64,000 bases of DNA from Natronospira bacteriovora (lineage in GTDB: Bacteria; Pseudomonadota; Gammaproteobacteria; Natronospirales; Natronospiraceae). The stretch covers positions 496,001-560,000 of the forward strand of contig NZ_JAVDDT010000002.1 in assembly GCF_030848495.1 (NCBI RefSeq), read 5' to 3'. The stretch's first letter is position 1. Each line of letters opens with the position of its first letter. Below are positions 30,574-44,724 of this stretch, in pieces. The notes under the pieces were generated by a model that saw nothing but the letters and a program-made list of their open reading frames with translations, did no database searches and was not told the origin of the DNA. The position numbers and the translations under genes were made by a program.

Positions 30574-31689
30574 ATGACTTCAGGTTCACAGCGGCGAGTG
30601 CGTGAGCAAGAGGCGGCGGTTCAGCTGTATTTCGAGGGGGCGCCGCTCTACGATGACATGCTGGCCGCCATCGCTACGGCCCGGGAACGTATCTGGCTGG
30701 AAAGCTACATTTTCGCTGATGACGAGGTCGGCCGACTGTTCCTGCTGGCCCTGGCCGATGCTGTGAGACGTGGTGTCGACGTCCGCCTGCACCTGGACGC
30801 CGCCGGAAGCCTGTTCAGGACCGGCCGCCGCTTTTTCCGGGAGGTGCGCCATGCCGGTATTCCTCTGCGGCGATTTCATCGCTGGTCCTGGCGCGAACCA
30901 TTCAGATACAATCGAAGAAATCATTGCAAGTTATTGATAATAGATGACTCATGCCTATTCACCGGTGGTTTTAATATCCACCGGGAGAGTGATGCGCGAG
31001 TGGTCGGGTCGGCCTGCTGGCGCGACAGTCACGCTGCCATTCACAGCCGCTCCCTCTGTGAGCAGGCAGAAATCCTGTTCGACCTGTTCTGGTCTCATCG
31101 CTGGCGTGATCCGACAAGACGTTTCGTCGACCAGGCGGGGCGTCAGGGGTTGGCGCTGGTCGGTAATCGCGGGCCACGCCAGGAACACGCACTCAGAAAA
31201 CTCTACCGGGATGCCCTGGATCAGGCCGAACAGCGGATTCTCCTGACCACCCCGTATTTCGTTCCCGATGCCAAGACCCTGTTGTGCCTGCGTCGGGCTG
31301 CTCGTCGCGGCGTTTCCGTGCATTTGCTGTTGCCGGGGGTGATTGACCACCAGGCGCTGCTGCTGGTGGCGAGACGTCAGTATCGACGGCTGCTGGAAGC
31401 GGGCGTGCGCATCCATGAATATCGGCAACGCATCCTGCACGCAAAGACCCTGACCGTGGATGGCGAGCTGGGCATTCTTGGCACGGCCAACTTCGACTAC
31501 CGCAGTCTTTTTCACAACTATGAACTCAACCTGGTGATTCGGCAGCGCGGCCTCACCGAGCAACTCGATCGGCAATTCGCACGTGATCTGGATCAGTCCG
31601 ACGAGATTACGCTGGAGAACCTGCCGGATCCGAACTGGCGGGAGCGCTTGCTGGGCCGGGCCGGATGGGTGGTTCGTCGCTGGCTGTAA
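30574..31689 (+). CDS. cardiolipin synthase-like phospholipase D protein
   Basis: The product is 371 residues with two HKD motifs: NHCKLLIIDD (His117, Lys119, Asp124) followed by FTGGFNI, and LHAKTLTVDG (His289, Lys291, Asp296) followed by GTANFDYRS. There is no N-terminal membrane helix, as in ClsB/YbhO-type enzymes. It probably makes cardiolipin from phosphatidylglycerol at the inner membrane. It is the last host gene before the dif site. Confidence 0.88.
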   Translation: MTSGSQRRVREQEAAVQLYFEGAPLYDDMLAAIATARERIWLESYIFADDEVGRLFLLALADAVRRGVDVRLHLDAAGSLFRTGRRFFREVRHAGIPLRRFHRWSWREPFRYNRRNHCKLLIIDDSCLFTGGFNIHRESDARVVGSACWRDSHAAIHSRSLCEQAEILFDLFWSHRWRDPTRRFVDQAGRQGLALVGNRGPRQEHALRKLYRDALDQAEQRILLTTPYFVPDAKTLLCLRRAARRGVSVHLLLPGVIDHQALLLVARRQYRRLLEAGVRIHEYRQRILHAKTLTVDGELGILGTANFDYRSLFHNYELNLVIRQRGLTEQLDRQFARDLDQSDEITLENLPDPNWRERLLGRAGWVVRRWL

Positions 31690-31744: not shown

Positions 31745-31772
31745 AGTGCGCATAATATATATTATGACAAAC
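31745..31772 (+). other. dif: dif chromosome-dimer-resolution site; prophage attachment site
   Basis: The left arm AGTGCGCATAA (31745-31755) differs from the E. coli XerC arm only at the first base. The centre is TATATA (31756-31761; E. coli TGTATA). The right arm TTATGACAAAC (31762-31772) matches the XerD arm in eight of eleven positions. The core CATAATAT/ATATTATG is a perfect 16-bp palindrome. The site sits between the last host gene and a phage integrase. The less conserved right arm is on the phage side, as expected if it came from the phage. Confidence 0.85.
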
Positions 31773-31848
31773 ACCGAGGATGGGAATTCTCGATTGTCTG
31801 TGGCCCTTGTGTAGAGCGGCTTTCCTCCATTGCGAGGCGAGTACGAAA

Positions 31849-32784
31849 ATGGCCCGAGGGTTATTACCACGGACTTATGGTTACATTGAGCGCTTCGAGT
31901 GGTACCTGGTGGCGGCTCACCGGAGTCCGGAGACGCGGCGGATCTACCAGGGCACCTTGCGGCGCTTCTTCTGCTATGTGGCGAATCCAATAGCACCGCT
32001 ACGCTCCGAGGTTCATTGCTGGTTGCGCGATCGCCGGGGCGCTGTGTCGGCCTCGACGCTGAATACGGATCTGAAGGCCCTGAGGGCGTTTTACCGCTGG
32101 GCCTGGGTCATGGGCGTCTCTGAGCAGGATTGCACGCTCCTGCTGCCTGAGAGCCGCCGTGTGCCCCGCCGGCTGCCCCGGTACCTGACGGACCAGGAGG
32201 TGGGCCGTTTGTTGGCTGAGCCGGATCTGACGACCTTTACCGGCTTCCGGGACCATGTGCTGATCCGGCTGCTGTACGAGACCGGGCTGCGGGCTTCGGA
32301 GGCCGCGCGGCTGGAAATCGGGGATATCCTGCCGGACGGCCTGGTGTTTGTTCGAGGCGGAAAAGGCAATGTGGACCGCTATTGCCCGATCTCGAGGGAG
32401 CTGCAGCAGCTGCTGGACGCCTGGCTGCAGCTGAGACGCACTGCAAGGCCCGGGAAGAAGCTGGCAGTGTTTGTGAGCCCCAGAGGCAAGGCCTGGGCGT
32501 CCGGCCGCGTTGTGTGGCGCCGTGTGAGCCTGTATGCGAGGCGGGCGCTGGGATTGGCGCGGGGGTACGACCGGGTGCGCGCTGAGGCCCGCCGGCGGCC
32601 GTGGAGCGGGCAGTACCCGCATCTGCTGCGGGCGAGCATGGCCACCGCCCTGCTCCACCGTGGCGTGGATCTGCGGGCCGTTCAGGAGCTGCTGGGCCAC
32701 AGCAGTATCAGCACCACGGCCCGGTATCTGGGTGTGGATATCGAGATGCTGAAGCGCGAGCATCGGAAATTGCGGGGTCGGTGA
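31849..32784 (+). CDS. int: XerC/D-like tyrosine recombinase (phage integrase)
   Basis: The product is 311 residues from ATG 31849. All catalytic residues are visible: Arg148 (ETGLRASE), Lys172 (GGKGN), His258 and Arg261 (PHLLRAS), His284 (LLGHSS) and nucleophile Tyr293 (TARYLG). Size and motifs are Xer-like rather than lambda-Int-like. It lies 76 bases from dif, so it probably catalyses integration at dif, alone or with host XerC/D. The ORF extends upstream to 31780, and the first ATG there is possible. Confidence 0.9.
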   Translation: MARGLLPRTYGYIERFEWYLVAAHRSPETRRIYQGTLRRFFCYVANPIAPLRSEVHCWLRDRRGAVSASTLNTDLKALRAFYRWAWVMGVSEQDCTLLLPESRRVPRRLPRYLTDQEVGRLLAEPDLTTFTGFRDHVLIRLLYETGLRASEAARLEIGDILPDGLVFVRGGKGNVDRYCPISRELQQLLDAWLQLRRTARPGKKLAVFVSPRGKAWASGRVVWRRVSLYARRALGLARGYDRVRAEARRRPWSGQYPHLLRASMATALLHRGVDLRAVQELLGHSSISTTARYLGVDIEMLKREHRKLRGR

Positions 32785-32786
32785 TG

Positions 32787-32978
32787 TCATGGCCGATCCG
32801 GGCCCCTCGATACATGTCCTGGCGGCTGACTTTCATTTCTGAGCGGCGCGATGACGCACCGGCAATCCGCATGCTTCCCTGACCCGACGACCGACGATGA
32901 TTGCCAGCCAGGCTTACGCGGCCTCCAGCCGGTCAGTTGTTCGATGATTTGCCACGATCCAGCCTTAAAGGTCTTCAT
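32787..32978 (-). CDS. small phage protein of unknown function
   Basis: The product is 63 residues (MKTFKAGSWQIIEQLTGW...). It is supported by its ATGA overlap with the gene before it, the junction used throughout this operon. It has two Cys near residue 45 and a basic, proline-containing tail. It is the last gene of the early operon and is convergent with the integrase. Confidence 0.5.
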   Translation of the reverse strand: MKTFKAGSWQIIEQLTGWRPRKPGWQSSSVVGSGKHADCRCVIAPLRNESQPPGHVSRGPDRP

Positions 32979-33211
32979 GAGTCCTGCTCCTTCTCGCTTC
33001 GGCAGTCGGGGCAGCCGTCGTTGCCGCGCAGGTGGTCGTAGTAGCCGATCGATTCCGGCTTGAGGCTCTTGCGTAGCGCCTTCTTCACCGAACGCTCCAG
33101 CCATCGCAGATCCTCGATGCGGCGGAGGATCTGATCCGCCGAGGCATCCGCCGGCAGGCCGAGGTTGTAGCGGATGGCTTCCCAGGTTTCTCTGACGATT
33201 GGGTCTGTCAT
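32975..33211 (-). CDS. small phage protein with C-terminal CxxC
   Basis: The product is 78 charged residues, helical in the first 50 (ETWEAIRYNLGLPADASADQ), ending in GNDGCPDCRSEKEQDS. The family is not recognised. It overlaps both neighbours by four bases, so it is translated as part of the early operon. Confidence 0.65.
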   Translation of the reverse strand: MTDPIVRETWEAIRYNLGLPADASADQILRRIEDLRWLERSVKKALRKSLKPESIGYYDHLRGNDGCPDCRSEKEQDS

Positions 33212-33510
33212 GAGGCCTCCGAATCATCCGGCATGAGAATGCAGGGCTGTTTTGGGTCTAGGGCGCGGGCGTGGGTCTTGTGCGTGGCGGTGGCGCGCAG
33301 GACGATGACGGTGGCGCCGTCGGCGCAGTGGGTTACGGACTGGACCTTGGCCGGGACGGCTTTGCCGAGAGATCGCCAGTAGGCCATGCGGCACTTTGGA
33401 TGGCAGAAGCGTCTGCCTTCCTTTGTGACCGGGAATGGTTTGCCGCAGGTGAGGCAGTCGCCCCACTCGCCCTCGTCTGCTGTGTTGTACTCGGCGCGTT
33501 GTTCGGTCAT
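33208..33510 (-). CDS. zinc-ribbon-like phage protein
   Basis: The product is 100 residues. CLTCGKPF and RRFCHPKC supply four cysteines spaced like a treble-clef zinc finger, followed by RMAYWRS. A beta-rich C-terminal half follows. It may bind nucleic acid, but no specific family is claimed. It overlaps both neighbours as ATGA. Confidence 0.7.
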   Translation of the reverse strand: MTEQRAEYNTADEGEWGDCLTCGKPFPVTKEGRRFCHPKCRMAYWRSLGKAVPAKVQSVTHCADGATVIVLRATATHKTHARALDPKQPCILMPDDSEAS

Positions 33511-34031
33511 GCGGCTACCTCAAGCTCCCCGGCTTTCTTGCTGATGAAGACGCCCCGGTCGGATATCCGCGCCAAAGCGGAAGCGCAATCCCCCCCCCAC
33601 GCGAAGAAGAGAGAGGCCGCACCGCAGCGTGATCGCTTGTGCTGGTTCTCGGTTCCAGGAACAAATTGCATCCGCCCCCGGTAGAACAGCATGGCGTCGC
33701 AGGTCTTCATCGCTTTCTGGCACCAGCTCACATCCGTGCGGCTGAACACCAACGCGATGCCGTCGCCGTGATCGATCATCCGATCCATCCAGCGCCCCGT
33801 CTCCCGACCGTAAGGCGGGTTGAGCCAGATTCGGCCGCTCCATGGCGATTTAAGGCCATCATCGAAGGCGGTCAGCTTCCTGGTGGCCGGTACATGGGTC
33901 TCGTGGTCCCAGGGCGAAGCCGGATCCAGGTCAAACCTGATGCCAAGGGCCTCAAACACCCACGCGGGCGTGTACCACTCCACGCTCTTGTTCCGGCGAT
34001 CACCAGGCTGAAGGCCGATCCCTTGACTCAT
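33507..34031 (-). CDS. dam: phage DNA N6-adenine methyltransferase
   Basis: The product is 174 residues of the small phage Dam family. VEWYTPAWVFEALG, FDLDPASP and the catalytic motif WLNPPYG (NPPY) are visible. It probably methylates adenine in phage DNA, possibly against host restriction. A nine-G tract (9 C at 33590-33598) encodes part of AWGGDC near the C-terminus and keeps the frame here, but it is a possible site of slippage. Confidence 0.88.
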   Translation of the reverse strand: MSQGIGLQPGDRRNKSVEWYTPAWVFEALGIRFDLDPASPWDHETHVPATRKLTAFDDGLKSPWSGRIWLNPPYGRETGRWMDRMIDHGDGIALVFSRTDVSWCQKAMKTCDAMLFYRGRMQFVPGTENQHKRSRCGAASLFFAWGGDCASALARISDRGVFISKKAGELEVAA

Positions 34032-34237
34032 GCCGCCACCTCGTCTCGGTCAAACTCGCTGCAGGTGTCCGAGGGCATCACGGCCCGGTTGCGCAGTTCG
34101 CAGCTCAGGTGGACGCTGATGGCGCCCTGCCGGGGTGTGCAGTGGCGGCACAGGGTGCAGCGCTTGTGCAGCTCGTCGGCGCGGGCCCAGCGGATTGGGC
34201 TTGCTGGTTTGTCGGTGCCGTTGATGTGGCGTTTCAT
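34028..34237 (-). CDS. small cysteine-containing phage protein
   Basis: The product is 69 residues from ATG 34237, overlapping the previous stop. CTLCRHCTPRQG followed by HLSCELR resembles a small zinc-binding module. The ORF can be extended to 34381, but that part lies within the upstream gene. Confidence 0.6.
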   Translation of the reverse strand: MKRHINGTDKPASPIRWARADELHKRCTLCRHCTPRQGAISVHLSCELRNRAVMPSDTCSEFDRDEVAA

Positions 34238-34626
34238 GCCGCCTCGCCTTCGTCTTCCTGGTAGTGGTTGATATGAACGGTTGAGCCGCATTGCGGGCAA
34301 TACCGCACACGGCTTTCCTCCGGGCCGCCGTCGGGGAACCCCCAGGTCAAGCCGCAGTCGGTGGTCCAGATGGCCTCCCAATCTTCACGCCAGTTGCAGG
34401 GCTTCCCCTTCTTCGTGGTGTAGATAGGGTCCTCGACATACGGTTCATCACGCTGTTCCTCGATCCAGTCCAGCAGCTCTTGGGGGTCAGTGTCCGGGGG
34501 CATGCCGGCGGCTTCGAGGGCGGCATCGAGAATGTCCTGTCCGCGTCGGTCAGGCGGTGCAGGCGATCTGGCCGGCTTGCCGATATCACTTGGGCGTTCG
34601 TTGTGGCCGGGTGTTCTCGTGCTCAT
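34234..34626 (-). CDS. phage protein with C-terminal zinc ribbon
   Basis: The product is 130 residues. The N-terminus is disordered and proline-rich, followed by an acidic helix (DILDAALEAAGM) and a C-terminal RYCPQCGSTVHINH zinc-ribbon half. No function is assigned. Its ATG overlaps the stop that the upstream wHTH gene would have if its G tract were one base shorter. Confidence 0.65.
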   Translation of the reverse strand: MSTRTPGHNERPSDIGKPARSPAPPDRRGQDILDAALEAAGMPPDTDPQELLDWIEEQRDEPYVEDPIYTTKKGKPCNWREDWEAIWTTDCGLTWGFPDGGPEESRVRYCPQCGSTVHINHYQEDEGEAA

Positions 34627-34686
34627 GGTTGTTCACCTATCTGCATCTGTTTCGATTCGTAAAGGCGACGGCGTTTGTCGTCGGGG

Positions 34687-34839
34687 TCAGGTAGTGCGGC
34701 GACTACCCCCCCCCCTGCTGAGCTGCCTGAGGGCTCGGCGGACGGTGGTGACCGCCAGGCCGGTGCGGTCGACCATGTCCGTGACGCGGACGGGTTCGCC
34801 GTAGGGCAGTGACTTGAAGATCTGGTCGAGGCTGTTCAT
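34687..34839 (-). CDS. winged-helix protein interrupted at a 10-G tract
   Basis: As read, the product is 50 residues (ATG 34839) ending soon after QLSRGGGSRRTT. The helix-turn-helix VTDMVDRTGLAVTTVRRALRQL is clear. The coding strand has ten G (34715-34706). With nine G the frame continues as GGVVAALPDPDDKRRRLYE and stops at 34623 inside the ATG of the next gene, an ATGA junction. That gives about 71 residues with a MarR-like wing. The gene is therefore frameshifted, phase-variable or affected by a sequencing error. Confidence 0.7.
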   Translation of the reverse strand: MNSLDQIFKSLPYGEPVRVTDMVDRTGLAVTTVRRALRQLSRGGGSRRTT

Positions 34840-35456
34840 GCGGCCACCTGGGTGTTGCCGTAGTGCTTGTAGTATTGCTTGATGCCCCACACGATGGCGT
34901 AGAGGTTCCACAGATAGCCGAAATCGAGCTGATCAACGCAGTTTTCCCAGAAATCCTGGAGATTGAAGCCGTTGTGCTCGAAATCCATGGCGGCTCTGAC
35001 AGCCTCAAAGCCATTATCGAAATGGCGGTCCAGCAGCGCGTTTCGCAGCTCGTGCCAGCACTCCATGCGCCCCTCAAAGCCCTGATCTTCCCAAGCCATT
35101 CGAAAATCATTGACCACCGCCGCGCGGAACTTCTCAAGGCTGAACTTCTCAATGCCGTGATGCCTGTCTGCGGCCAGCACTTTCTCTGTCCAGTACCCGG
35201 GATTGATGCTCAGATCGTCGCGGCGGAAGAAGCTGAACATGTCATTGACGCGACTGAACACATAGGTGCCCATATCGCCGGTAATGCAGAGGTGGCCAGG
35301 CCAGGTGATCAGGTCGAAGCCCATGATGACTGTGCCGGGTGTCCGGAACCTGAGGTGCCGGCGGGGCTCATTCGTCTGGTCTTCGATGATCGTCATTTCA
35401 TGGTCTTTCACATGCTCAAGGAATTGCTCCTTTGCCCAAATCCTTTCATCATTCAC
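34836..35456 (-). CDS. phage protein of unknown function
   Basis: The product is 206 residues from GTG 35456 behind GGAGG. The sequence is rich in aromatic residues (GTYVFSRVNDMFSFFRRDD, FGYLWNLYAIVWGIKQYY). No family is recognised. The frame can be extended upstream to 35735, but that part is low-complexity basic sequence opposite the GemA-like gene. It overlaps its neighbours as GTGA or ATGA. Confidence 0.7.
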   Translation of the reverse strand: MNDERIWAKEQFLEHVKDHEMTIIEDQTNEPRRHLRFRTPGTVIMGFDLITWPGHLCITGDMGTYVFSRVNDMFSFFRRDDLSINPGYWTEKVLAADRHHGIEKFSLEKFRAAVVNDFRMAWEDQGFEGRMECWHELRNALLDRHFDNGFEAVRAAMDFEHNGFNLQDFWENCVDQLDFGYLWNLYAIVWGIKQYYKHYGNTQVAA

Positions 35457-35764
35457 GCCGACCTCCTCGGTCTGTCCGGTAGCGCTTTCAAGTGGTGCAT
35501 GAAGCGCTTGAATGTCTTTTCGTCCATGTCTTTGCTGCTGTCGACGCCGTACTGGCGGAGGCGCAGTTTGTAGTCTTCGTAGCTCAGGCCTTTTCGGCCC
35601 AGGGCGATGGCGTGGACGCGCTTGATTCTCTCGGGCGTCATTTCCCATCGCGGTTTTCGGCGGCGGCCGAGTTTGACGCCGTCGGTTGGGCAGTGCTTGA
35701 CGGACTTCTCGAACCAGAAGCCGCAGCGCGGGCACTGCCGGTGGCCGACACGGCGGAAGCTCAT
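35453..35764 (-). CDS. GemA (Mu gp16)-like regulatory protein with zinc ribbon
   Basis: The product is 103 residues from ATG 35764. An N-terminal ribbon (CPRCGFWFEKSVKHCP) precedes a GemA/gp16-like helical segment (RIKRVHAIALGRKGLSYEDYKLRLRQYG). In Mu-like phages GemA modulates host and early gene expression. The N-terminal zinc ribbon is an addition not usual for that family. Confidence 0.65.
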   Translation of the reverse strand: MSFRRVGHRQCPRCGFWFEKSVKHCPTDGVKLGRRRKPRWEMTPERIKRVHAIALGRKGLSYEDYKLRLRQYGVDSSKDMDEKTFKRFMHHLKALPDRPRRSA

Positions 35765-36054
35765 TCGGCGGCGGGGGCGGCCTCGGTCATCTGAGGAACC
35801 CAGTGTTCCAGCCACGACCGCAGAGAGTTGGCGTCGTGGTGCTCTTCGAAAGAGAGCTCCGCCATATGACACATGAACCTGGACCTCAAGACACCATCGT
35901 CACCACGCCAGGCGAAGAGCGCGCCTTCGTAGCCCGGGCCGACACAGACGCCGTGTGACTCGATCGCCGCCATCGCGGCGTCTACTGAATGGACCATCGG
36001 CGCTTCAACAACACCGGATAGTCCCTCGAGGTTATGAAGCTCTGTCGTGTTCAT
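35761..36054 (-). CDS. phage protein of unknown function
   Basis: The product is 97 residues from ATG 36054. It is acidic, with a possible alpha/beta fold (GPGYEGALFAWRGDDGVLRSR). It overlaps the GemA-like gene by four bases. No motif is recognised. Confidence 0.6.
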   Translation of the reverse strand: MNTTELHNLEGLSGVVEAPMVHSVDAAMAAIESHGVCVGPGYEGALFAWRGDDGVLRSRFMCHMAELSFEEHHDANSLRSWLEHWVPQMTEAAPAAE

Positions 36055-36082
36055 GACTAATCTCCTTGCGAGCGTTTCGCTG

Positions 36083-36325
36083 TTATGCGGCCTGGCTGTT
36101 TCTCTGGCTCTCGCTGAGTCGGCCGAGGTAGTGGTATTCGGCCACCTGGGTCTTGCCGTAGCGGGTCTTGACCTTCTTGCGTTTGCTGACGATGTCATAG
36201 CCCGCCTGCTTGAGATCGAACACCCGCGTGGCCGGCATGCCGATGCCGAGCGTGTCGCGGATCTGTTTGGTGGTCATGGGCCCGCGCTTGAGGGCCTTGA
36301 GCAGGACTTCGCATTGCTGTTTCAT
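36083..36325 (-). CDS. winged helix-turn-helix phage protein
   Basis: The product is 80 residues from ATG 36325. LLKALKRGPMTTKQIRDTLGIGMPATRVFDLKQAGYDIVSKR is a complete winged helix of the phage HTH_39 type, probably DNA-binding. It overlaps the upstream gene as ATGA. Confidence 0.75.
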   Translation of the reverse strand: MKQQCEVLLKALKRGPMTTKQIRDTLGIGMPATRVFDLKQAGYDIVSKRKKVKTRYGKTQVAEYHYLGRLSESQRNSQAA

Positions 36326-36507
36326 GCCGGCCTCCCTTGCTGGAGCTGGGTGCGGAAGCGAACCTGGTTGTAGCCCCGGCAATAGCCGCGGGGCTTATCG
36401 GCCAGGGCCGGATCGCCGAGGGGCTCGTGGAGCCGGCGGCGGATCTCGGCCGGGGTGAGTTGGCCGGGGCGTTGGCGTGGGGTGAAGAGGTCGGGTTGGT
36501 TTGCCAT
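36322..36507 (-). CDS. small basic phage protein
   Basis: The product is 61 residues from ATG 36507 (MANQPDLFTPRQRPGQL...), rich in Arg and Pro. The ATGA overlaps on both sides are the main support. Function is unknown. Confidence 0.55.
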   Translation of the reverse strand: MANQPDLFTPRQRPGQLTPAEIRRRLHEPLGDPALADKPRGYCRGYNQVRFRTQLQQGRPA

Positions 36508-36899
36508 CAAGCCACCCTCCGGCCTAAGAAATCGCCAAGCTTTATCTCGCGTCCATAAATCTCACAGAATGGTGCCCACCCAAGCTCCACCAGCAAGCCG
36601 GGCAAGTCACGCCCAGTCCATTCGGAGAACGCGCCGAGATCAGAGAGGATGTCCTTCTGATAGTCATGACCCGTGAAATAATCCCGCGCCGACCCAAGCA
36701 TTCCTGGCTCAAATTCAATGGCGCCGTGACCCTCACAAATGCTGCAGGTGCTTTCCTTTTCCCCGCCACAGCAATGACATACCTCTTCGACTTTTCCGAA
36801 TCCGTCACAGGAACCGCACCTCAGCACCTCGCGGTTGGCGCATGCAACCTGAAAGCGTTTTTCAGCCCACTCATCGAATGAGAAAAGTCGTGGCCGCAT
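36507..36899 (-). CDS. DnaJ-type zinc-finger phage protein
   Basis: The product is 130 residues. Four CxxC repeats (CGSCDGFGKVEEVCHCCGG is followed by CSICEGHG) resemble the DnaJ cysteine-rich zinc domain. A C-terminal region (FSEWTGRDLPGLLVELGW) follows. There is no J domain. It overlaps the tyrosine recombinase stop (TGATG). Confidence 0.65.
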   Translation of the reverse strand: MRPRLFSFDEWAEKRFQVACANREVLRCGSCDGFGKVEEVCHCCGGEKESTCSICEGHGAIEFEPGMLGSARDYFTGHDYQKDILSDLGAFSEWTGRDLPGLLVELGWAPFCEIYGREIKLGDFLGRRVA

Positions 36900-37882
36900 C
36901 ACCCGGCCCTCCTCTGCTCAACCCCCACCGGGCACTCGCGCTGTACGCGTTCACGCAGGCGCTGGCGGCTGACGCTGCCGTAGGTGCGGATGGTGGTGGC
37001 GGGGTCGGTGTGGCCGGCGACATCGGCGGCGGCGCGGGCGTCGAGTTTGTCGTAGAGATCGCCCAGGCGGCGGTGGCGCAGCATGTGGGGATGCAGGCCG
37101 TGGAGGCCGTGGGTTTCGCCCAGGGCCTTGACGCGGTTGTAGATGGTCTGGCGCCGGATGCGCTTGCCGGTGCGGTTGATGAACAGGGCCTCGGTGGGCA
37201 CGGCCGAGCGCGTGTAGTGGCGGCGCACAGCCAGCCAGTCGTTCACGGCTTCCAGGGTGGCCTCGCCGCAGAGGCCCTGCTCCAGGCGCCCGCCTTTGGC
37301 GCGGTACCAGATGAGGCCGTCCGGCTGTACCTGGCAGCGGCGGGTCGCGTCGGGGCGGTAGAGGTCGAGCGAGACCACGCCCTGGCAGCGCAGGGCGGCG
37401 TCGTAGAGCAGCATCAGCATGGCGCGGTCGCGCAGGCCCATGGGTGTGCGGGTGTCGATGGCGTCGATCAGCCGCTCGATCTCCCGGGCGGGCGGCGCGA
37501 TCACCGGCTCGTGGTGGTAGCGTGGCGGGTCCACCTGGTGCATTGGGTTGGCGTGGGGCTCGAGCAGGCCCTGGGCGCACACATATTTATAGAGGCCACG
37601 GACGGTCTCGAGCTTGCGGGCGGCGGTGCGCAGGGTCATGCCCTCACCGGTCACCAGGGCGTCGAGCCAGTCTTCGATGTGGCGACTGCCGACGGCGGTG
37701 GCCGTAAGCAGGCCGCGCTGCTGGCACCAGCCGACGAACTGGCCCAGGTCGCAGCTGTAGGCGCGCAGGGTCTCCTCGGCCCGGCCCCGGCGCTGGAGGC
37801 GCTGCAGGTAACGGCGGCAGAGCAGGGTCAATTCGCCGGGTTGGGCCACGGGGCGAGCGTGGAACGGGATCATCTTATCCAT
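36899..37882 (-). CDS. second tyrosine recombinase
   Basis: The product is 327 residues from ATG 37882. A core-binding domain (YLQRLQRRGRAEETLRAYSC) precedes the catalytic domain: Arg in YDAALRCQGVVSLDLY, Lys in RAKGG, HPHMLRHRR, GHTD and the Tyr nucleophile in IRTYGSVS. It lies inside the early lytic operon rather than at an end, which argues against a simple integrase role. It could act in excision, resolution or inversion. Confidence 0.85.
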   Translation of the reverse strand: MDKMIPFHARPVAQPGELTLLCRRYLQRLQRRGRAEETLRAYSCDLGQFVGWCQQRGLLTATAVGSRHIEDWLDALVTGEGMTLRTAARKLETVRGLYKYVCAQGLLEPHANPMHQVDPPRYHHEPVIAPPAREIERLIDAIDTRTPMGLRDRAMLMLLYDAALRCQGVVSLDLYRPDATRRCQVQPDGLIWYRAKGGRLEQGLCGEATLEAVNDWLAVRRHYTRSAVPTEALFINRTGKRIRRQTIYNRVKALGETHGLHGLHPHMLRHRRLGDLYDKLDARAAADVAGHTDPATTIRTYGSVSRQRLRERVQRECPVGVEQRRAG

Positions 37883-38219
37883 TGGCTGCCTCCGCGAGTT
37901 GAGCGGCGGCCAGATGGCCGAGCACATCATCCAGCGCCACGCGCAAGCGGTAAGCGCGGGCCGGGCCTATAACCAGCCAGACGCCACGAGACCCGAGCGG
38001 GATGTGCACATCGGGGCCGGGGCTGTCATGGGCGCTCGTGACCTGGCGCAGGTACAGCACCACCTCCTCGGCTTCTTCGCTCGAGATCTGGACCACGGTG
38101 TGGTCGCCCAGCGTGATGCCGATCTTCGGCTGGCTGGAGGCGCCGGCGGGCGGGAACATCATGACCAGGCCTTCGTCGGTACGCCGGCCGATCTGGCGTG
38201 TGTAGCAGCGGGTAATCAT
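37875..38219 (-). CDS. phage protein of unknown function
   Basis: The product is 114 residues with alternating hydrophobic strands (KIGITLGDHTVVQISSEEAEEVVLYLRQ). It overlaps the recombinase start and the upstream gene. No family is recognised. Confidence 0.6.
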   Translation of the reverse strand: MITRCYTRQIGRRTDEGLVMMFPPAGASSQPKIGITLGDHTVVQISSEEAEEVVLYLRQVTSAHDSPGPDVHIPLGSRGVWLVIGPARAYRLRVALDDVLGHLAAAQLAEAANG

Positions 38220-38443
38220 GCGGCGTCACCTCCTGTCGGGCCGGGGGCCGGCACAGGCCGGGGCTGATCTTCCAGGGGCAGCCGTCCGAGACGGCCGCCC
38301 GGGTAGGCGATGAAACCGCCGTGTTCGCAATAACGACCCACGAAGAACTCCAGCGGCCGCCGCGGAAACCACCGCCGCCAGGCTCTGAGCTCCACGTCGT
38401 TGGGTGCTCGTATCACTCTCAAGTTGCTGGCTGTCTGGGGCAT
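38216..38443 (-). CDS. small phage protein
   Basis: The product is 75 residues from ATG 38443 with GGAGAG upstream. It contains RRWFPRRPLEFFVGRYCEHGGFIAY. No function is recognised. Unlike the other genes of the operon it is preceded by an 81-base gap that holds the hairpin at 38486-38522. Confidence 0.6.
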   Translation of the reverse strand: MPQTASNLRVIRAPNDVELRAWRRWFPRRPLEFFVGRYCEHGGFIAYPGGRLGRLPLEDQPRPVPAPGPTGGDAA

Positions 38444-38485
38444 GGCTATACTCTCCGTTGTCACTTCGCATCTCGTTGTGATCTC

Positions 38486-38522
38486 AGCCCGGTTTCTGGT
38501 GGCCGCCAGAGCCGGGCTTTTT
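38486..38522 (+). terminator. intrinsic terminator facing plus, antisense to the early operon
   Basis: AGCCCGG (38486-38492) pairs with CCGGGCT (38512-38518), with an inner CTGG/CCAG stem and a run of five T on the plus strand. All genes here read minus, so it would end an antisense transcript. On the minus strand the stem lacks a U run. Confidence 0.65.
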
Positions 38523-38524
38523 GT

Positions 38525-38788
38525 TCAGGCCGCTTCGGCGCGGCGGCGCTCACCCAGCAGCTCGTCGGAACTGCTGATAGGCCAATCGATAGCGCGACCA
38601 GGCGTGGCGGTGTCCTTAAGCAGATCCGTCATGCGGATATAACGCCCGTCACACCACATTTCCCATACGCAGCCATTCAGTCTCGGCGCGTGGGCCAGAT
38701 CATCCAGGCTGGCCACCATGCCGAGCTGGAGGCGGACCGCGCATACCAGCCGGGCGGAATCCGCCGTCATTACCGTCTGCCCTCTCAT
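38525..38788 (-). CDS. small phage protein
   Basis: The product is 87 residues (start 38788, or 38770 at a second Met), overlapping the upstream gene. WEMWCDGRYIRMTDLL suggests a compact mixed fold. It is unassigned. Confidence 0.55.
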   Translation of the reverse strand: MRGQTVMTADSARLVCAVRLQLGMVASLDDLAHAPRLNGCVWEMWCDGRYIRMTDLLKDTATPGRAIDWPISSSDELLGERRRAEAA

Positions 38789-39378
38789 GACGCCCTCCTC
38801 CGTGCGCGGGCCCGCTCGGCACAGATCACGCGCTCAGGCGCCACCCGTTTCGTGCGGGCGCGGAGTGTGGTGGCCGCCGCGATCAGCCCGTCGATTTCAT
38901 CCAGCGCTTCCTCAGCCAGGGCCTCGTCCTTGCCTATGATCTTGCCGCCGTCCAGGAGCGGTGCCAGGGCCTCGATGGCCTTGCCCGTCCGCTTGACGAA
39001 ATCCGCCAGGCTCACGGCCGTGCCTTCGCAGCCATGCAAGGGGATGGGCGCGGCCAACAGGCCGTAGCGGCGGCAGAGATCCTGCAGCAGCGCGTCCTGC
39101 CGGTCCTCCGGCATTGCGCAGACGATGGCCTCCTCCAGATCCGCCAGCAGCTCGCCGCTCTCCTCCATGCGCCGGAGAATCTGCGCATCCAGGCGGGCAG
39201 CGTCGTAAGGGTCCTTGCCGCGCTCGTCCACATGGAAATGCACCCGGCGCTGGGGCTCGGGCACGGTGCTGTTGTGCAGCCGGGCCACGCTCGTGGCGAA
39301 GCTCGGCCAGCTCGTGCTGGTTTCGCGGATGTAGGCGTGGACATGCCGCCAGAGTGTGTTGGCGCGGGATTCAATCAT
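38785..39378 (-). CDS. phage protein of unknown function, helical
   Basis: The product is 197 residues from ATG 39378. It is mostly helical and charged, with the last 20 residues very basic (ARTKRVAPERVICAERARAR). It overlaps both neighbours. No family is recognised. Confidence 0.6.
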   Translation of the reverse strand: MIESRANTLWRHVHAYIRETSTSWPSFATSVARLHNSTVPEPQRRVHFHVDERGKDPYDAARLDAQILRRMEESGELLADLEEAIVCAMPEDRQDALLQDLCRRYGLLAAPIPLHGCEGTAVSLADFVKRTGKAIEALAPLLDGGKIIGKDEALAEEALDEIDGLIAAATTLRARTKRVAPERVICAERARARRRAS

Positions 39379-39802
39379 GACGAGCCCCCTTGGCGGCAAG
39401 GTCTGGGGCCGAATGCAAGCGGACCGGAAGGAAGCAACTCACCGTGACGCCCACCGGCAGGTCGCCGCTGAACTGTTTGCCATTCCAAAACGCTGGAGCC
39501 AAGCCGCCATTAGTGAGGCCGCATATGTAGATCCCAGGCGCGAGCGGGTGGGCGTCTTTAAACCTCTTAAAGTCCGCCGTCCGATCCGAATCGGGGCAGC
39601 CACCCTCATGGCGGATCAGCCGTTCCAGGTAATCCAGCGCCTTCTGCAGATCCTTCACGCCATCCTTCAGCGCAAAGCGCGAGACATACTTGATAACATT
39701 GCCGGCCAGAAAGCCCCGCATTTCCTTCTGGTTGAATCGGCTCTCCATATACTCGAGCGGCTGAATGCCGTGGGCGTAGTGCGGTTGTTGGCGAATGCTC
39801 AC
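39371..39802 (-). CDS. DUF3310 (SaV-like) phage protein
   Basis: The product is 143 residues. The first 65 (HGIQPLEYMESRF, FLAGNVIKYVSRFALKDG, LQKALDYLERLI) match the DUF3310 domain common in phage early regions, whose role is uncertain. The remainder is a poorly conserved extension. Confidence 0.75.
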   Translation of the reverse strand: MSIRQQPHYAHGIQPLEYMESRFNQKEMRGFLAGNVIKYVSRFALKDGVKDLQKALDYLERLIRHEGGCPDSDRTADFKRFKDAHPLAPGIYICGLTNGGLAPAFWNGKQFSGDLPVGVTVSCFLPVRLHSAPDLAAKGARHD

Positions 39803-40134
39803 GCGGCCTCCTTTTCGTTATCGGTTACCGTCGGTGTCCAGCCGCCGGTGGTTTTCTTGATCTCTTCCCAGGTGGTGGTCGGTTGCTTGCCGGAACGGAT
39901 CTTCTTGAGGGCGCGGTCCAATGCCGCGGACCGGTTTTGGCGATCGGAGAAGTGAACAATCACCCAAATCCCCGGTTTGAAATCAGGGCTCATTTGTGAA
40001 TGGGGGCACACACACTCAACGGTCCCCTCCAGGCCCACTGCATGCTTATGCATTGGGTTCTCGGGATCGTCGGGCAAAAACATCACCACGTCCCCCGGAT
40101 ACAGCGGCTTGCCATCACAGTCCCGCCCCAACAT
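39799..40134 (-). CDS. phage protein of unknown function
   Basis: The product is 111 residues from ATG 40134. It begins with LYPGDVVMFLPDD and VGLEGTVECV, which looks like a small SH3-like beta barrel. It overlaps both neighbours as ATGA. Confidence 0.6.
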   Translation of the reverse strand: MLGRDCDGKPLYPGDVVMFLPDDPENPMHKHAVGLEGTVECVCPHSQMSPDFKPGIWVIVHFSDRQNRSAALDRALKKIRSGKQPTTTWEEIKKTTGGWTPTVTDNEKEAA

Positions 40135-40319
40135 CACGCCGCCTTCTTGTCAGCTGTCATCAGCGGCGCGTTCTCCATGCCGCGCTGGATGTTCTTGAGA
40201 CGCCGAGCGCATTCTTTTGGGCCCTGGTGTGGCTTCTTCCTGTTCTGGCGAGCGATGTCGCGGTGGACACGGGCCATGACGGGGTTCTGGTTGCGAGTCT
40301 TACCCTGGCGGCGCTTCAT
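40134..40319 (-). CDS. small very basic phage protein
   Basis: The product is 61 residues from ATG 40319, about a third Lys, Arg and His (MKRRQGKTRNQNPVMARVH...). It is possibly nucleic-acid binding. The frame runs upstream through the tRNA to 40631, but that part is not coding. The 146 bases between this gene and the tRNA hold a stem, CTGCCCTG/CAGGGCAG (40404-40439), and no gene. Confidence 0.55.
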   Translation of the reverse strand: MKRRQGKTRNQNPVMARVHRDIARQNRKKPHQGPKECARRLKNIQRGMENAPLMTADKKAA

Positions 40320-40465
40320 TGGCGCGGCTTTCTCGCCTCTCGAATAAACGCCCAAGGCAGCGCTGCCGGTCGCTGCCATTGGGCGGGCGCACTCATTGCC
40401 GCCCTGCCCTGTTGCCAGGGAGGGGGACTCACAGGGCAGAGCCCGGCAGGCGGCCTCGGGGGAAT

Positions 40466-40541
40466 TGGTAGCGGGGGTGGGACTTGAACCCACAACCTGC
40501 GGCTTATGAGACCGCCGAGCTTCCAGTTGCTCTACCCCGCA
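40466..40541 (-). tRNA. tRNA with CAU anticodon, initiator-like
   Basis: Reading minus from 40541, all parts of a 76-base tRNA are present: a 7-bp acceptor stem with T1/T72 unpaired, D stem GAGC/GCTC with A11-U24, anticodon stem GCGGT/GCCGC with loop CTCATAA (anticodon CAT), a 5-base variable loop, T arm GTGGG TTCAAGT CCCAC, discriminator A and an encoded CCA. The unpaired 1-72 position and A11-U24 are hallmarks of bacterial initiator tRNA. The three G-C pairs below the anticodon loop are only partly kept (G29-C41, G30-C40, U31-G39). Confidence 0.93.
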
Positions 40542-40557
40542 TTTGAAATCGGTGTGC

Positions 40558-41301
40558 TTACGCATCGGCCACCTCCCCGGAAACTTCCGTTTCGTGATCC
40601 TCGGGGAGAGGCGGAATAGACTCGTAGTCATGGTGATTCATGACCACAGCGCGAAGCGTCGAAATGCTCCAGCGGTTCTTGCCCGCCGGCGAGGGGATGT
40701 TGTGGGCGCGAAGATGGTCCGACAGGGCGCGATAGCTCATGGTCTGCTTCCAGCCCACGATCTGCTCACGCAGCGCCCAGGCCGCCGGGTCGCGATAGAC
40801 GCGGCCATCCACTTCCACACAGCCATAAGGCACTGGGCCCCACACCCTGCCCTGCTCACGCAAGGCGTCGCTGGTTTCCTTGGCCCGCTCGGAGATCGTC
40901 AGCCGCTCGTTCTCGGCCACCGCCACCAGCATGAAGAAGGAAAGCCACCCGGCGCGGGTGGAAATGTCGATACCCTCGGAGACGGACTTGATCGCCCTAC
41001 CCTGCTCCCGGAACCAGGTGCCAGTGGTGATGGCATCCACACCCAGGCGGAACAGACGATCAAGGCGCTGGACGATGACGCCGTCGGCATCAAAGGTCTC
41101 CATATCTTCAATCAGACGACCGCCGCCCAGGCGCGAATCAAGCGGCTTACTCGCGCTGACGCCCTCATCCGAAACCCAATGCACTATCTCGTCACCCTGA
41201 GCACCGGCGAACGCCTCAATCTGACGGCGCTGCGTCATGAGCGAATGCCCATCCCTCGCCTGCTCGTCGGTGCTCACACGGATGTAGCCGATCAATCGCA
41301 T
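40558..41301 (-). CDS. serine recombinase (resolvase/invertase family)
   Basis: The product is 247 residues. The catalytic domain starts MRLIGYIRVSTDEQ, with nucleophile Ser10, and has the LDRLFR motif near residue 80. A short recombinase domain follows (WALREQIVGWKQTMSYRALSDHL). It is much shorter than large serine integrases. It is the second early gene, 16 bases after cro and just before the tRNA. Confidence 0.88.
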   Translation of the reverse strand: MRLIGYIRVSTDEQARDGHSLMTQRRQIEAFAGAQGDEIVHWVSDEGVSASKPLDSRLGGGRLIEDMETFDADGVIVQRLDRLFRLGVDAITTGTWFREQGRAIKSVSEGIDISTRAGWLSFFMLVAVAENERLTISERAKETSDALREQGRVWGPVPYGCVEVDGRVYRDPAAWALREQIVGWKQTMSYRALSDHLRAHNIPSPAGKNRWSISTLRAVVMNHHDYESIPPLPEDHETEVSGEVADA

Positions 41302-41316
41302 GGTCAGCGCTCCCTT

Positions 41317-41517
41317 TTAAGCGGCGGCTTTCGGGCCGTAGAGGTCTTCGTAGGAGACTTCCTTGTTCGTCTCCGCCACGATGTGCTGGGCTGTTTCAGC
41401 CTTGGGATGAATCAAACCCTTTTCCAGCTGGTACACCGCGCCGTGCGTCAGACCGAGGCGTTCAGCCAACTCCCGCTGGCTCAGCCCCATCTTTTCGCGC
41501 CATTCCCTTAGTTTCAT
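41317..41517 (-). CDS. Cro-like helix-turn-helix regulator
   Basis: The product is 66 residues: WREKMGLSQRELAERLGLTHGAVYQLEKGL is a standard XRE helix-turn-helix. It is divergent from the repressor gene and first in the 9-kb early operon, the position of Cro in lambdoid switches. Confidence 0.85.
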   Translation of the reverse strand: MKLREWREKMGLSQRELAERLGLTHGAVYQLEKGLIHPKAETAQHIVAETNKEVSYEDLYGPKAAA

Positions 41518-41554
41518 GCCGTGAACGCCTCATATCAGAACCACTATGCAAGAA

Positions 41555-41583
41555 AGGCTAGTATTCCTATTCCCGGAAGTCAA
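41555..41583 (-). promoter_or_regulatory. early promoter and operator region between cro and repressor
   Basis: On the minus strand TTGACT (41583-41578), a 17-base spacer and TAGCCT (41560-41555) form the promoter for cro and the early operon. The 114-base region repeats GGAAT several times and holds a short palindrome TTCCCGGAA at the -35 edge, likely operator half-sites for the two XRE proteins. Confidence 0.6.
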
Positions 41584-41631
41584 GGGGAATTGTTATTTCG
41601 CCGGAATCACAGTCCCACTATCCTTGCGGAG

Positions 41632-41967
41632 ATGAGCATAGGGCGCCGCATAAAGGAGGCGCGGGATCGGGCGGGGCTGACGCAGGACACGGTCGCGAAG
41701 GCCTTGAAAGTGACGAAAGGTGCGGTTTTCCAATGGGAAAAGGATCTGGCCACCCCCAAGTCAGCGCGGCTCGCAGAGCTGGCCCGCTTTCTCGACGTCG
41801 AATACGAATGGCTAGCCACCGGACGGGGGCTGGAGGCGCGGAGCTACGTCAAGGATGAAGCCGGCAGTTATTCGGGCCTTGGCGATGAGGAGCGGCGGCT
41901 CCTGCTGGCGTTTCGAGGGCTCCCCGCGGCCAAACAGAGAGCGCTGCTGGAGCTGATTGAATCCTAG
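41632..41967 (+). CDS. prophage repressor (XRE family)
   Basis: The product is 111 residues from ATG 41632. The N-terminal helix-turn-helix RIKEARDRAGLTQDTVAKALKVTKGAVFQWEKDLATP leads to a short C-terminal helical segment. There is no LexA-like autopeptidase domain, so induction would not be through simple RecA cleavage of this protein. The ORF can be extended to 41521 across the operators, which is unlikely. Confidence 0.85.
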   Translation: MSIGRRIKEARDRAGLTQDTVAKALKVTKGAVFQWEKDLATPKSARLAELARFLDVEYEWLATGRGLEARSYVKDEAGSYSGLGDEERRLLLAFRGLPAAKQRALLELIES

Positions 41968-41994
41968 AATATTTCACCCAGATCGGGAGTGGCT

Positions 41995-42324
41995 ATGGAT
42001 AAGAAACTTCCCATCCTCGTTGTTTGTGCTGTGCTGGCGGGCTGCGGGGGAAGCCCGGAGGAAAAGATCGCCAGTCATCTGAACGAAACCTCGGCCGTAC
42101 TCGAGTTCGGCTGGGAAGTCTCCGATGTTCGCTTCGCTCGGGATCAGTATTACGCCCACATCAGCCTGCCAGGGCAATACGACCTCGCCGGGCAACTACC
42201 CCGAGAAACCGAAAATGCCGTGCAAGGCCTGTGTCCAGCAGGTGAGCAGGACGCTGCTAGCGGCGACTTCTGGCGCGGTGAAGACCGCTTCGACGCGTTC
42301 CGATTGATCGCCTCGAACACCTGA
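41995..42324 (+). CDS. small lipoprotein, probable lysogeny cargo
   Basis: The product is 109 residues from ATG 41995. A lipoprotein signal ends VLAGC with Cys17. The mature part is acidic and unassigned. It follows the repressor by 27 bases on the same strand, so it should be made in the lysogen. Confidence 0.7.
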   Translation: MDKKLPILVVCAVLAGCGGSPEEKIASHLNETSAVLEFGWEVSDVRFARDQYYAHISLPGQYDLAGQLPRETENAVQGLCPAGEQDAASGDFWRGEDRFDAFRLIASNT

Positions 42325-42404
42325 TTCAGTGACGCAACTTAGGTCGCGCTGGGACACCAGCGGGAGCAATTGCCGAGACACCCAGCCTGGATAAAGGAAT
42401 CTGA

Positions 42405-43379
42405 ATGAACCCCGAACTACTGAAGATTGAATCAGAGGAAGATGCCTGGAGGGCATTTGAGCAGGCGCTAAAGTGGCCGGACTCCCCCGTCGAGGCACGA
42501 GACGTTCATCTGGATCTGAGCGGGTGGCCGTCTATCCAGTTGAGGGTGAAAGGTGATCGTTATCGGTCTACAATCACCACAAGCCTGATGAAGCCCATCC
42601 TTGATCTTCAGGGCGCTGTTTACGCAAGCTATGCCAAAGCCGCCTACGGTAAAGGTGATGGCAGAAACCTCCGAAAAGAAGAACGCCAAAAGCTTGAGAT
42701 TGTCGTACATGTAGAGGAAGGGTCCTCGCTGCTCAATATTGAGCTGGGCGATGGGCTTAAGGAAATCTGGGAAGACATGAGGACCAAGATGGACGGCAAG
42801 CAGGTCACAATAGTGGTGCTAGGATTGGCGCTAGTGATCGGCGGCGTCACAGCGTACAAGAGTTACCTCAGCCATCAGGCGGATCTCAAAGAGCTCGATC
42901 ATCGGCTGGAAATGTCTAAGCAGGAAACCGAGCGGATGAGAATCCTGCACGAGGCCATGCAGGGGAATGAGATCGAGCGAGACCTCCAGTCAAGCGTAAA
43001 CCAGTTCCGCTCGCAGCTTTTGCGAGCGGTTGAGGATGCGGATGAAGTTCTCATTGGAGAGGAGATCCGCCTTACCGGCCACCAGGCGCGGCGAATCGCG
43101 GGCGAGCCCAGAACCGCGGGCATCGATGACAGGATTGATGGCGAGTTCCGGGTTCATCTCGTCGACAGCAGCACCGAAGACTCCTCCCTGAAGCTGCGGG
43201 TTAAAAAGACCGACGACGGCCAGGAGTTTACTGCAACCACCGACATTTCCCAGGTGGCGATGGCCGGCATCGAGCAGCTCCAGGCGGCGGTTTTCGAGAA
43301 GAAGCCCATCAAGCTGGCGGTGAATTTCCGCCGAGTTCGAGACGAGATCACCCGGGCCAAGATCATTTCTGTTGGCTGA
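42405..43379 (+). CDS. single-pass membrane protein of unknown function
   Basis: The product is 324 residues. A soluble N-terminal domain of about 130 residues, one membrane helix (about 132-150, VTIVVLGLALVIGGVTAY), a coiled coil (LKELDHRLEMSKQETERMR) and a C-terminal beta-rich domain follow each other. No family is recognised. It lies in the repressor transcription unit and is followed by a strong terminator. A role in superinfection exclusion or abortive infection is a guess from position and topology. Confidence 0.7.
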   Translation: MNPELLKIESEEDAWRAFEQALKWPDSPVEARDVHLDLSGWPSIQLRVKGDRYRSTITTSLMKPILDLQGAVYASYAKAAYGKGDGRNLRKEERQKLEIVVHVEEGSSLLNIELGDGLKEIWEDMRTKMDGKQVTIVVLGLALVIGGVTAYKSYLSHQADLKELDHRLEMSKQETERMRILHEAMQGNEIERDLQSSVNQFRSQLLRAVEDADEVLIGEEIRLTGHQARRIAGEPRTAGIDDRIDGEFRVHLVDSSTEDSSLKLRVKKTDDGQEFTATTDISQVAMAGIEQLQAAVFEKKPIKLAVNFRRVRDEITRAKIISVG

Positions 43380-43409
43380 ACCTGAAACCCCAGTCTCATG
43401 CAAAACGAA

Positions 43410-43446
43410 CCCCGATGGCTATACTGGTAGCCGTCGGGGTTTTTTT
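43410..43446 (+). terminator. intrinsic terminator after the repressor unit
   Basis: CCCCGATGGCTA pairs with TAGCCGTCGGGG around a six-base loop, and seven T follow. This ends the repressor, lipoprotein and membrane protein transcript. Confidence 0.9.
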
Positions 43447-43476
43447 ATGCCAGGGAGCAACAAAGGAGAAGGATCG

Positions 43477-44232
43477 ATGAAAGCGAATATGCGAAATGCG
43501 ATGATCATTACCGTGCTGGCCATGATGGCGATGAGCGTGGTGGCTTGTTTTTCGTCGAGTTCGGCGGATGGTGGGTCGGACTGGGATGAGGCGAGGATTG
43601 TGGCGCTGGAGGATCAGGTGGCGGATCTCGAGGATCGGGTGACGTCGCTTGAACAGGGTATTCATCCGGGGCCGTTGACGCGCGTCCGGGTGGGCGGTGC
43701 TGGGTCTGGCGGTGCGGCTGCCGGGCTGGTGAGTGCGGCTGGGGCTGCGGGTGAGCCGGTCGATGTTGGCCAGGCGGTGCATCACTTGCCACAGCAGGAG
43801 TTTCGCCGGTCCAGCTCGTATGAGGTGGTGAGCAACGAGGGCTACCTATTTGAGTTGCCGGCCCGAGCAGAGGCCGTGGAGATTTCTATCGGGCGTGTCG
43901 GGCAGATTGAGTACGATGCGCCGGACTGCCAGGGGTCGCCATATATCCGTGAGATCGGCACGGCGGGCGCGGCCCAGGGTTACGTATTCCGGCAGCGGAC
44001 GGATGCGGATCCGTTCGGTGAGGACCCGGAAAATTACTGGATGGTGCCGGCGGGCAGCGGCTGGAGTAACTTCCAGGCTTATAGCTACTGGGACAATAAC
44101 AGCAACGATTGCACCAATCGGGCCGAGCCTTGGTCGGTGCAAGGCGTACCGATTCAGCTGAATGACCCAGACGTGACAGGCGTCCCGTCCGGCCGGATGA
44201 TGGGCCCGACAATCATGGGCCTGGGCGACTGA
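43477..44232 (+). CDS. lipoprotein with coiled coil, probable lysogeny cargo
   Basis: The product is 251 residues from ATG 43477 behind AAAGGAGAAGG. The lipoprotein signal ends VVAC with Cys24. A Ser-rich linker, a short coiled coil (ALEDQVADLEDRVTSLEQ), a Gly/Ala stretch and a globular C-terminal domain of about 130 residues follow. It stands alone between two terminators, so it has its own promoter. Function is unknown; an envelope role in lysogens is possible. Confidence 0.75.
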   Translation: MKANMRNAMIITVLAMMAMSVVACFSSSSADGGSDWDEARIVALEDQVADLEDRVTSLEQGIHPGPLTRVRVGGAGSGGAAAGLVSAAGAAGEPVDVGQAVHHLPQQEFRRSSSYEVVSNEGYLFELPARAEAVEISIGRVGQIEYDAPDCQGSPYIREIGTAGAAQGYVFRQRTDADPFGEDPENYWMVPAGSGWSNFQAYSYWDNNSNDCTNRAEPWSVQGVPIQLNDPDVTGVPSGRMMGPTIMGLGD

Positions 44233-44253
44233 GCTGACTGGCGTGGAGAGCCA

Positions 44254-44285
44254 GCCCTGCCCTACGCCGTGGGGCGGGGCTTTTT
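44254..44285 (+). terminator. intrinsic terminator after the lipoprotein gene
   Basis: GCCCTGCCC pairs with GGGCGGGGC (one G-U pair) around a nine-base loop, followed by five T. Confidence 0.88.
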
Positions 44286-44314
44286 ATTTCCCGACGAACG
44301 GTGCAGCCATCCCC

Positions 44315-44343
44315 TTGCAATGTCCCATATATGGGACTATAAT
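44315..44343 (+). promoter_or_regulatory. promoter with a 16-bp palindromic operator as its spacer
   Basis: TTGCAA (44315-44320) and a perfect TATAAT (44338-44343) are 17 bases apart. Sixteen of the 17 spacer bases form the exact palindrome GTCCCATATATGGGAC (44322-44337). A protein bound there would block or remodel RNA polymerase. It drives the small-gene operon from 44416 to 46245. Confidence 0.8.
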
Positions 44344-44415
44344 GGATTCAACAGTTCAGGAAACGGCGGCACACCGCCACCCGCGCCTCGGGGAGTCAGG
44401 GGCAGGAGAATGACC

Positions 44416-44670: not shown

Positions 44671-44724
44671 TCACTGATACGCCCCGGCTCCGGTCGGGGC
44701 TGCTCTATGAAGGAGATGTGTACC

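Follow-up and report, generated by a model that had tools for sequence, protein, structure and literature searches.

A tailed prophage at the chromosomal dif site with an Xer-like recombinase gene beside a half-dif attachment site

Introduction

Genetic elements located at dif are generally held to rely on the Xer machinery of their host. A prophage of Natronospira bacteriovora, which adjoins a dif-like site and carries a tyrosine recombinase gene next to it, raises the question of whether a tailed phage can use dif as its attachment site with an integrase of its own, and what would then become of the dif of the lysogen. The DNA analyzed here, called the window, is a stretch of 64,000 nucleotides (C2:496001-560000) from the host genome G000, which comprises 3.0 Mb in 15 contigs. 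A first-pass annotation of the window had proposed a siphovirus-like prophage at the chromosomal dif with its own Xer-like integrase. We examined the two junctions, an empty site in a relative, the family to which the phage belongs, its recombinases and the polarity of KOPS-like motifs.

The dif site at the left junction

The 28-base dif-like site AGTGCGCATAATATATATTATGACAAAC lies on the plus strand at 31745-31772 and agrees at 23 of 28 positions with the dif of E. coli. When the whole of G000 is searched with a degenerate dif pattern and three mismatches are allowed, this is the single match; the better dif elsewhere that would have spoken against the annotation is absent. The reversed pattern, used as a control, has no match in the genome at the same tolerance, and none of 100 shuffles of the window reaches the match of this site. 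The site, taken as attL and as a complete dif from the pattern search and from the empty site of a congener, consists of a host-derived XerC arm (31745-31755, +), a 6-bp centre (31756-31761, +) and a XerD arm (31762-31772, +) that is supplied by the phage and matches that of the host. Its left neighbor is a host gene for a cardiolipin-synthase-like protein (30574..31689, +), the orthologue of which lies left of the empty dif in the congener G002, and its right neighbor is the tyrosine recombinase gene rec1. The mechanical open reading frame of rec1 begins at 31780, and the N-termini of relatives place the start at about 31849 (rec1, 31849..32784, +), 76 bp from dif. This agrees with the distance at which the annotation had set the integrase from a 28-base dif match beyond the last host gene.

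The divergence of the XerD arm, TTATGACAAA, from that of E. coli had been ascribed to the hybrid origin of the junction. This explanation has to be abandoned, since GACAA is also present in the native dif of the congener G002, of G003 from the same family and of G006 from the same order, and thus the arm is native to the clade rather than made divergent by phage donation. The attL junction is hybrid because its arms derive from two molecules, not because one of them looks foreign. In G003, a contig ends exactly on the last base of dif (L029 / G003:C7:4412-4439), and an element may be inserted at this dif in a part of the population.

The right junction and the empty site

The prophage occupies 31773..64000 of the window and continues to the end of contig C2, 9,178 bases past the window end. 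The centre and the XerD arm of dif recur exactly in an 18-bp direct repeat, AATATATATTATGACAAA; its left copy is at 31754..31771 (+), and its second copy, outside the window, forms the last 18 bases of C2 (C2:569161-569178) and is taken as attR. The 17-base core of this repeat is found at these two places only in the genome, at up to two mismatches, and the 41.4 kb enclosed between the two copies is the length of the prophage. A second dif-like site, which had been predicted for the right end, is indeed present beyond the window, although as a half-site: a second complete dif was searched for at this end, and the half-site alone is present.

As the second copy lies at the very end of C2, attR of the window element is read across a contig end. 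An empty dif, TATGCGCATAATATATATTATGACAAGT, in G002 helps to bridge it. On one side of this site is the cardiolipin-synthase orthologue (51% identical), and on the other side is a RES-domain gene followed by a block of genes, cobalamin genes among them, with orthologues at the start of contig C10 of G000, where the CobQ orthologue is at C10:6078-7505. The phage-free relative that the annotation had envisaged is thus available, with an empty dif between the cardiolipin-synthase orthologue and the gene block of the C10 start. No match to the RES-domain gene of G002 was found on C10, the first gene of which is a different one. Judged by this synteny, the host DNA past the right junction resumes on C10. 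The first base of C10 is T, and therefore, if C2 and C10 are adjacent, the host site without the insertion would be AGTGCGCATAATATATATTATGACAAAT. The end of C2 is the point at which an integrated form, with T as the next base, would part from a circular phage, with C as the next base, and this break hints at the presence of excised phage in the sequenced culture. The IMG/VR record 3300016669_000004 (L181, L193) starts and ends at the att core AATGTATATTATGT, a break of the type seen at the end of C2.

Gene content of the prophage

In addition to rec1, the prophage encodes a second tyrosine recombinase, rec2 (36899..37930, -), and, beyond the window, a third, rec3 (L002:6488-7693, -). Within the window are also genes for a Dam-like DNA methyltransferase (33507..34031, -), a serine recombinase of the resolvase/invertase family (40558..41301, -), an endolysin-like protein (47075..47698, -), a tail fibre-like protein (50359..53691, -), a distal tail protein (54619..55236, -), a tape measure protein (55233..57926, -) and a minor tail protein (58664..59641, -); genes for a portal-like protein and an O-like replication protein follow on C2 past the window end. 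From the tape measure, distal tail and portal-type genes together with an integrase and att sites, the prophage is predicted to be a temperate, tailed, siphovirus-like phage, in line with the annotation, which called it a tailed siphovirus. A tRNA-Met (anticodon cat) predicted by ARAGORN at 40466-40541 (-) adjoins the gene for the serine recombinase. A short repeat resembling GAAAAGGGTGACAGGGTTGTTACCC occurs in several copies (L002 about 8660-8800) within the gene for the O-like replication protein and is possibly the phage replication origin.

A phage family with a half-dif attP

Relatives of rec1 are found in Dyella, Stenotrophomonas, a Lysobacterales MAG, G101, IMG/VR and the phage MACPNOA1, the Rec1 of which is 45% identical to that of the window. 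In a class-wide search, 2 of 274 genomes match rec1, namely the window's own and G101. IMG/VR loci found in both rec1 scans were counted once, and L056 (33% over 124 residues) and L067 (25%) were dropped from the counts as too weak matches. A site made of the XerD arm plus the centre, with up to four mismatches to TGTATATTATGTTAAAT, lies within 300 bp upstream of rec1 at 17 of 20 loci, a count that excludes L057, L059 and L066, whose records start at rec1 or within 72 bp of it; 25 of 4000 shuffles reach this level. At the other three loci (L062, L063 and L064) the best site has 5-6 mismatches, which is equalled by 751 of 4000 shuffles, although L062 has a matching attR despite its weak upstream site. 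G101, checked separately from the 20 loci, has a full dif near rec1. The distance between rec1 and the site is 91-184 bp at the 19 loci measured.

Besides the window element, both junctions are present in three whole genomes and three IMG/VR records (G101, G290, G292, G298, G299 and G302). The centre is identical at attL and attR in all seven pairs, base 28 of the window attR being taken from C10 for this comparison, while it varies by host (TATATA, TATAGA, TGTATA, TGCCTA and TGTACA). The block of identity between attL and attR begins at the left boundary of the centre or as many as three bases ahead of it, and extends at least 6 bases into the XerD arm. Left arms of the attL type (n=12) share 8-10 of 11 positions with the XerC arm, and those of the phage type (n=15) share 1-4 of 11, which is about chance. 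The genome of G297 has a 127-bp terminal repeat and is therefore probably circular, and its attP is readable directly. The halves of this attP match attR and attL of its relative G298 at 97/100 and 98/100 bases, whereas the crossed comparison gives 28/100 and 40/100; attP here equals the left part of attR joined to the right part of attL. The attP of the family is a half-dif beside rec1, in which a left arm specific to the phage precedes the 6-bp centre and the XerD arm. After integration, dif is complete at attL and broken at attR.

The genomes of the family are about 40-45 kb. In G291 (Dyella sedimenti), attL is present, and attR was not found in the 20 kb examined. In G293 (the Lysobacterales MAG; L055, L073, L081), two contigs share the left dif flank (161/162 bases) and have different right flanks, and the Rec1-like protein beside the full dif is missing several catalytic residues. 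MACPNOA1 is recorded as a Microcystis phage; its attP contains a gammaproteobacterial-type dif half (KY697807 about 40493-40520; L043:1954-1981), and its true host may be a gammaproteobacterium.

Three tyrosine recombinases

The annotation had spoken of one complete Xer-like recombinase encoded by the phage; the completeness of its catalytic residues stands, while the number has to be raised to three. The window prophage carries three such genes, and a scan of nine IMG/VR records and MACPNOA1 finds exactly three PF00589 genes in each of these ten relatives, all with rec3 and rec1 flanking att and rec2 lying several kb past rec1. A further seven records, taken up because one type was missing in a partial view or because they came from another scan, have 4, 3, 3, 2, 2, 2 and 2 recombinases, some of these records being possibly incomplete; rec3 matches ranked below L217 in one scan and below L288 in another were omitted as much weaker.

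Rec1 of the window has a SAM-like domain and a catalytic domain with an intact R-K-H-R-H-Y set. Its best NCBIfam score is to the XerC model, at 171.5 bits against a cut-off of 335.15, and it scores 158 bits to the XerD model, the cut-off of which is 329.6. A captured host XerC or XerD is rejected as its identity, since it falls below both cut-offs and in a separate clade with 100/100 support. In the tree, from which the Rec1 of G293 was excluded, Rec1 (16 rows), Rec2 (11), Rec3 (11), XerC (10) and XerD (10) each form one clade, all with support of 99 or more, and the three phage clades are all outside XerC and XerD. The main groups agree across the three phage trees, and thus Rec1, Rec2 and Rec3 appear to be inherited together. 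Among the solved structures nearest to the Rec1 profile by sequence are XerA-type and XerD proteins.

The full set of six catalytic residues is present in 16/17 Rec1, 9/11 Rec2 and 10/11 Rec3 proteins; the single exception in Rec3 is that of the window, in which R replaces the first H. A C-terminal HPR motif is present in 13/17 Rec1, 10/10 XerC and 10/10 XerD and in 0/11 Rec2 and 0/11 Rec3, and Rec1 of the window is among those without it. No arm-binding domain is reported by Pfam in the three recombinases of the window. The XerC and XerD of the host are intact. In a scan for a site at which Rec2 or Rec3 might recombine, a GC-rich 11-6-11 inverted repeat recurred in the rec2 region of six of eight genomes (6059-6086 in G297 and the matching place in G298, G299, G302, G303 and MACPNOA1). 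Its geometry is that of an Xer site, but it resembles a terminator or an operator and may be one.

Polarity of KOPS-like motifs

For counts of KOPS-like motifs we used GGGNAGGG, the KOPS of E. coli. Left of dif, it occurs 13 times forward and 2 times in reverse in about 51.7 kb, and on the right side 1 time forward and 11 times in reverse in about 30.2 kb of C10. The polarity of the motif switches at the site, as expected for the terminus. A switch in GC skew had been predicted as well; the skew is of limited help here, positive on the left but at +0.018, -0.016 and -0.10 in the three stretches sampled on the right.

The prophages themselves are also polarized. Read in the direction from attL through rec1, eight genomes of the family have 75 KOPS-like motifs that point toward attL and 7 that point away. 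The observed/expected ratio under an order-3 Markov model is 3.67 on the toward strand, the highest of 56 motifs of the same composition, and 0.44 on the opposite strand. By strand ratio, the motif is second to GNGGAGGG (2:67), which includes the Shine-Dalgarno-like GGAGG, and further G-rich permutations are biased too, less strongly, so that gene orientation contributes to the bias. The eight genomes are not independent because G297 and G298 are near relatives. A pure coding-strand effect is reduced, not eliminated, as an explanation by Markov expectations of orders 2-4 and the 56 permuted motifs, and the bias is partly such an effect.

Discussion

The annotation's central proposal, a prophage at the chromosomal dif with an Xer-like integrase of its own, is borne out by both junctions and by the intact catalytic residues of Rec1; catalysis by Rec1 is the part that we infer. 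We consider it likely that this is a temperate tailed phage that uses dif as attB and a half-dif beside rec1 as attP, Rec1 being the most probable enzyme for recombination across the 6-bp centre. The junctions, the half-dif attP, the rebuilt dif, the three recombinases and the KOPS bias are read from the sequence. The products of the reaction would be attL, with the host XerC arm and the phage XerD arm, and attR, with the phage arm and the host XerD arm; attL would be complete and attR broken because the centre and XerD arm of the phage match those of the host. In this way the phage would carry as much of its target as is required to restore dif, as integrases in tRNA genes do, and the lysogen would retain one presumably working dif. 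Since attL is complete and attR broken, attL should be the site for XerCD and FtsK and would presumably function in dimer resolution, and since the KOPS-like motifs of the prophage point toward attL, as on the right replichore, FtsK should converge there. Where the two right arms are identical, attL has the same core as dif, and attR the same core as attP. Integration and excision can then not be told apart by their cores, and the direction of the reaction must be set elsewhere; candidates for this choice are Rec2, Rec3 or an unrecognized excisionase.

The idea that the site is not dif, or that the prophage is not inserted there, draws on the right junction falling on a contig end, and it is hardly credible in view of the shuffled windows, the sole genome match within three mismatches, the six other elements with both junctions and the syntenic empty site in G002. 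A more serious alternative is integration by the XerC and XerD of the host, as in CTXphi, TLCphi, GGI and LME-1, with XerD acting on the shared arm and centre, while rec1 would serve another function such as resolution of phage multimers. The XerD arm and centre in attP and the intact host enzymes are compatible with this, and TLCphi uses host Xer for integration despite one highly divergent arm (PMC5357621). However, the left arm of attP resembles the XerC arm at about the level of chance in 15 cases, and rec1 is kept within 91-184 bp of the site at 19 loci and is catalytically intact in 16 of 17 proteins, as is usual for an integrase, so that we regard integration by host enzymes as unlikely.

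It is still less probable, in our estimation, that a hybrid synapse is formed in which Rec1 takes the place of XerC on the phage left arm and is paired with host XerD on the XerD arm. The retention of the XerD arm and not the XerC arm in attP would fit such pairing, as would the top NCBIfam score of the window Rec1, to XerC, and the HPR motif common to most Rec1 and to all XerC and XerD sampled and absent from Rec2 and Rec3. On the other hand, the window's own Rec1 has no HPR motif, Rec1 branches outside XerC in the tree, and a centre plus one arm would also be expected of a stand-alone integrase that rebuilds its target. Integration by Rec1 with a half-dif attP remains the reading that we prefer. 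A broader scheme, in which the phage has a three-enzyme Xer-type system of its own directed at the dimer-resolution site of the host, Rec1 replacing XerC, possibly in a synapse with host XerD, Rec2 and Rec3 setting direction or timing and the KOPS polarity letting host FtsK act at the restored dif and so tying lysogeny to segregation, is put forward tentatively and is rather doubtful.

Several known systems share features with this family. IMEX, in which the host Xer enzymes do the recombination (PMC9765430), resemble it in dif integration, in a dif mimic and in an intact dif at one end with a modified dif at the other (PMC9765430; PMC5357621); LME-1, for example, integrates at dif with a 22-bp att (PMC9765430; PMC5357621). 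IMEX are characterized by dif integration via a dif mimic that regenerates dif, which is seen also in the window prophage, and by lack of an integrase near the site, whereas the window prophage is tailed and has, at a distance of 76 bp, an Xer-like gene of its own, rec1, and encodes two further recombinases. The tailless (Vinavirales-type) Vibrio prophages are likewise at dif and regularly have integrase genes (PMC11630473), and whether they use their own enzyme or that of the host is judged inconclusive by the authors (PMC11630473). In contrast to the present tailed phages of 40-45 kb with three recombinases, they are described as tailless and <16 kb, and it is by this description that the two are set apart.

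Three conserved tyrosine recombinases are also known from the Tyroviruses of Bacillus (PMC9703825), in which one of them, in the structural module, lies beside a putative 11-6-11 attP (PMC9703825); the passages on this attP contain no link to dif (PMC9703825). The Tyroviruses, at 160-170 kb and in Bacillus, are set apart by size and host from the 41.4-kb window element and its relatives with a gammaproteobacterial-type dif. With integrases and islands in tRNA genes, the family shares the principle that the element carries a sequence restoring the disrupted target (PMC4383910), although the rebuilt target here is a recombination site and not a gene. According to the same source, Xer proteins that serve as integrases of islands are encoded outside them (PMC4383910), and a genomic-island database excludes Xer-type proteins on that ground (PMC4383910). 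Searches of the open-licence PMC literature showed no case of a tailed phage that sits at dif and carries its own integrase, which is no proof of absence.

A coherent family of tailed phages with an Xer-like integrase of its own beside a half-dif contrasts with the borrowing of host Xer. Its natural sets of attP, attB, attL and attR might be used to study on what the need of an Xer enzyme for FtsK, a partner or a direction depends. With three recombinases that are co-inherited, the phage is a second case beside the Tyroviruses, and the division of labor among the three is genetically testable. The KOPS bias suggests that the segregation machinery selects on prophage DNA. Half of the dif of the lysogen is phage DNA, and the prophage can therefore maintain or break the resolution of chromosome dimers in its host.
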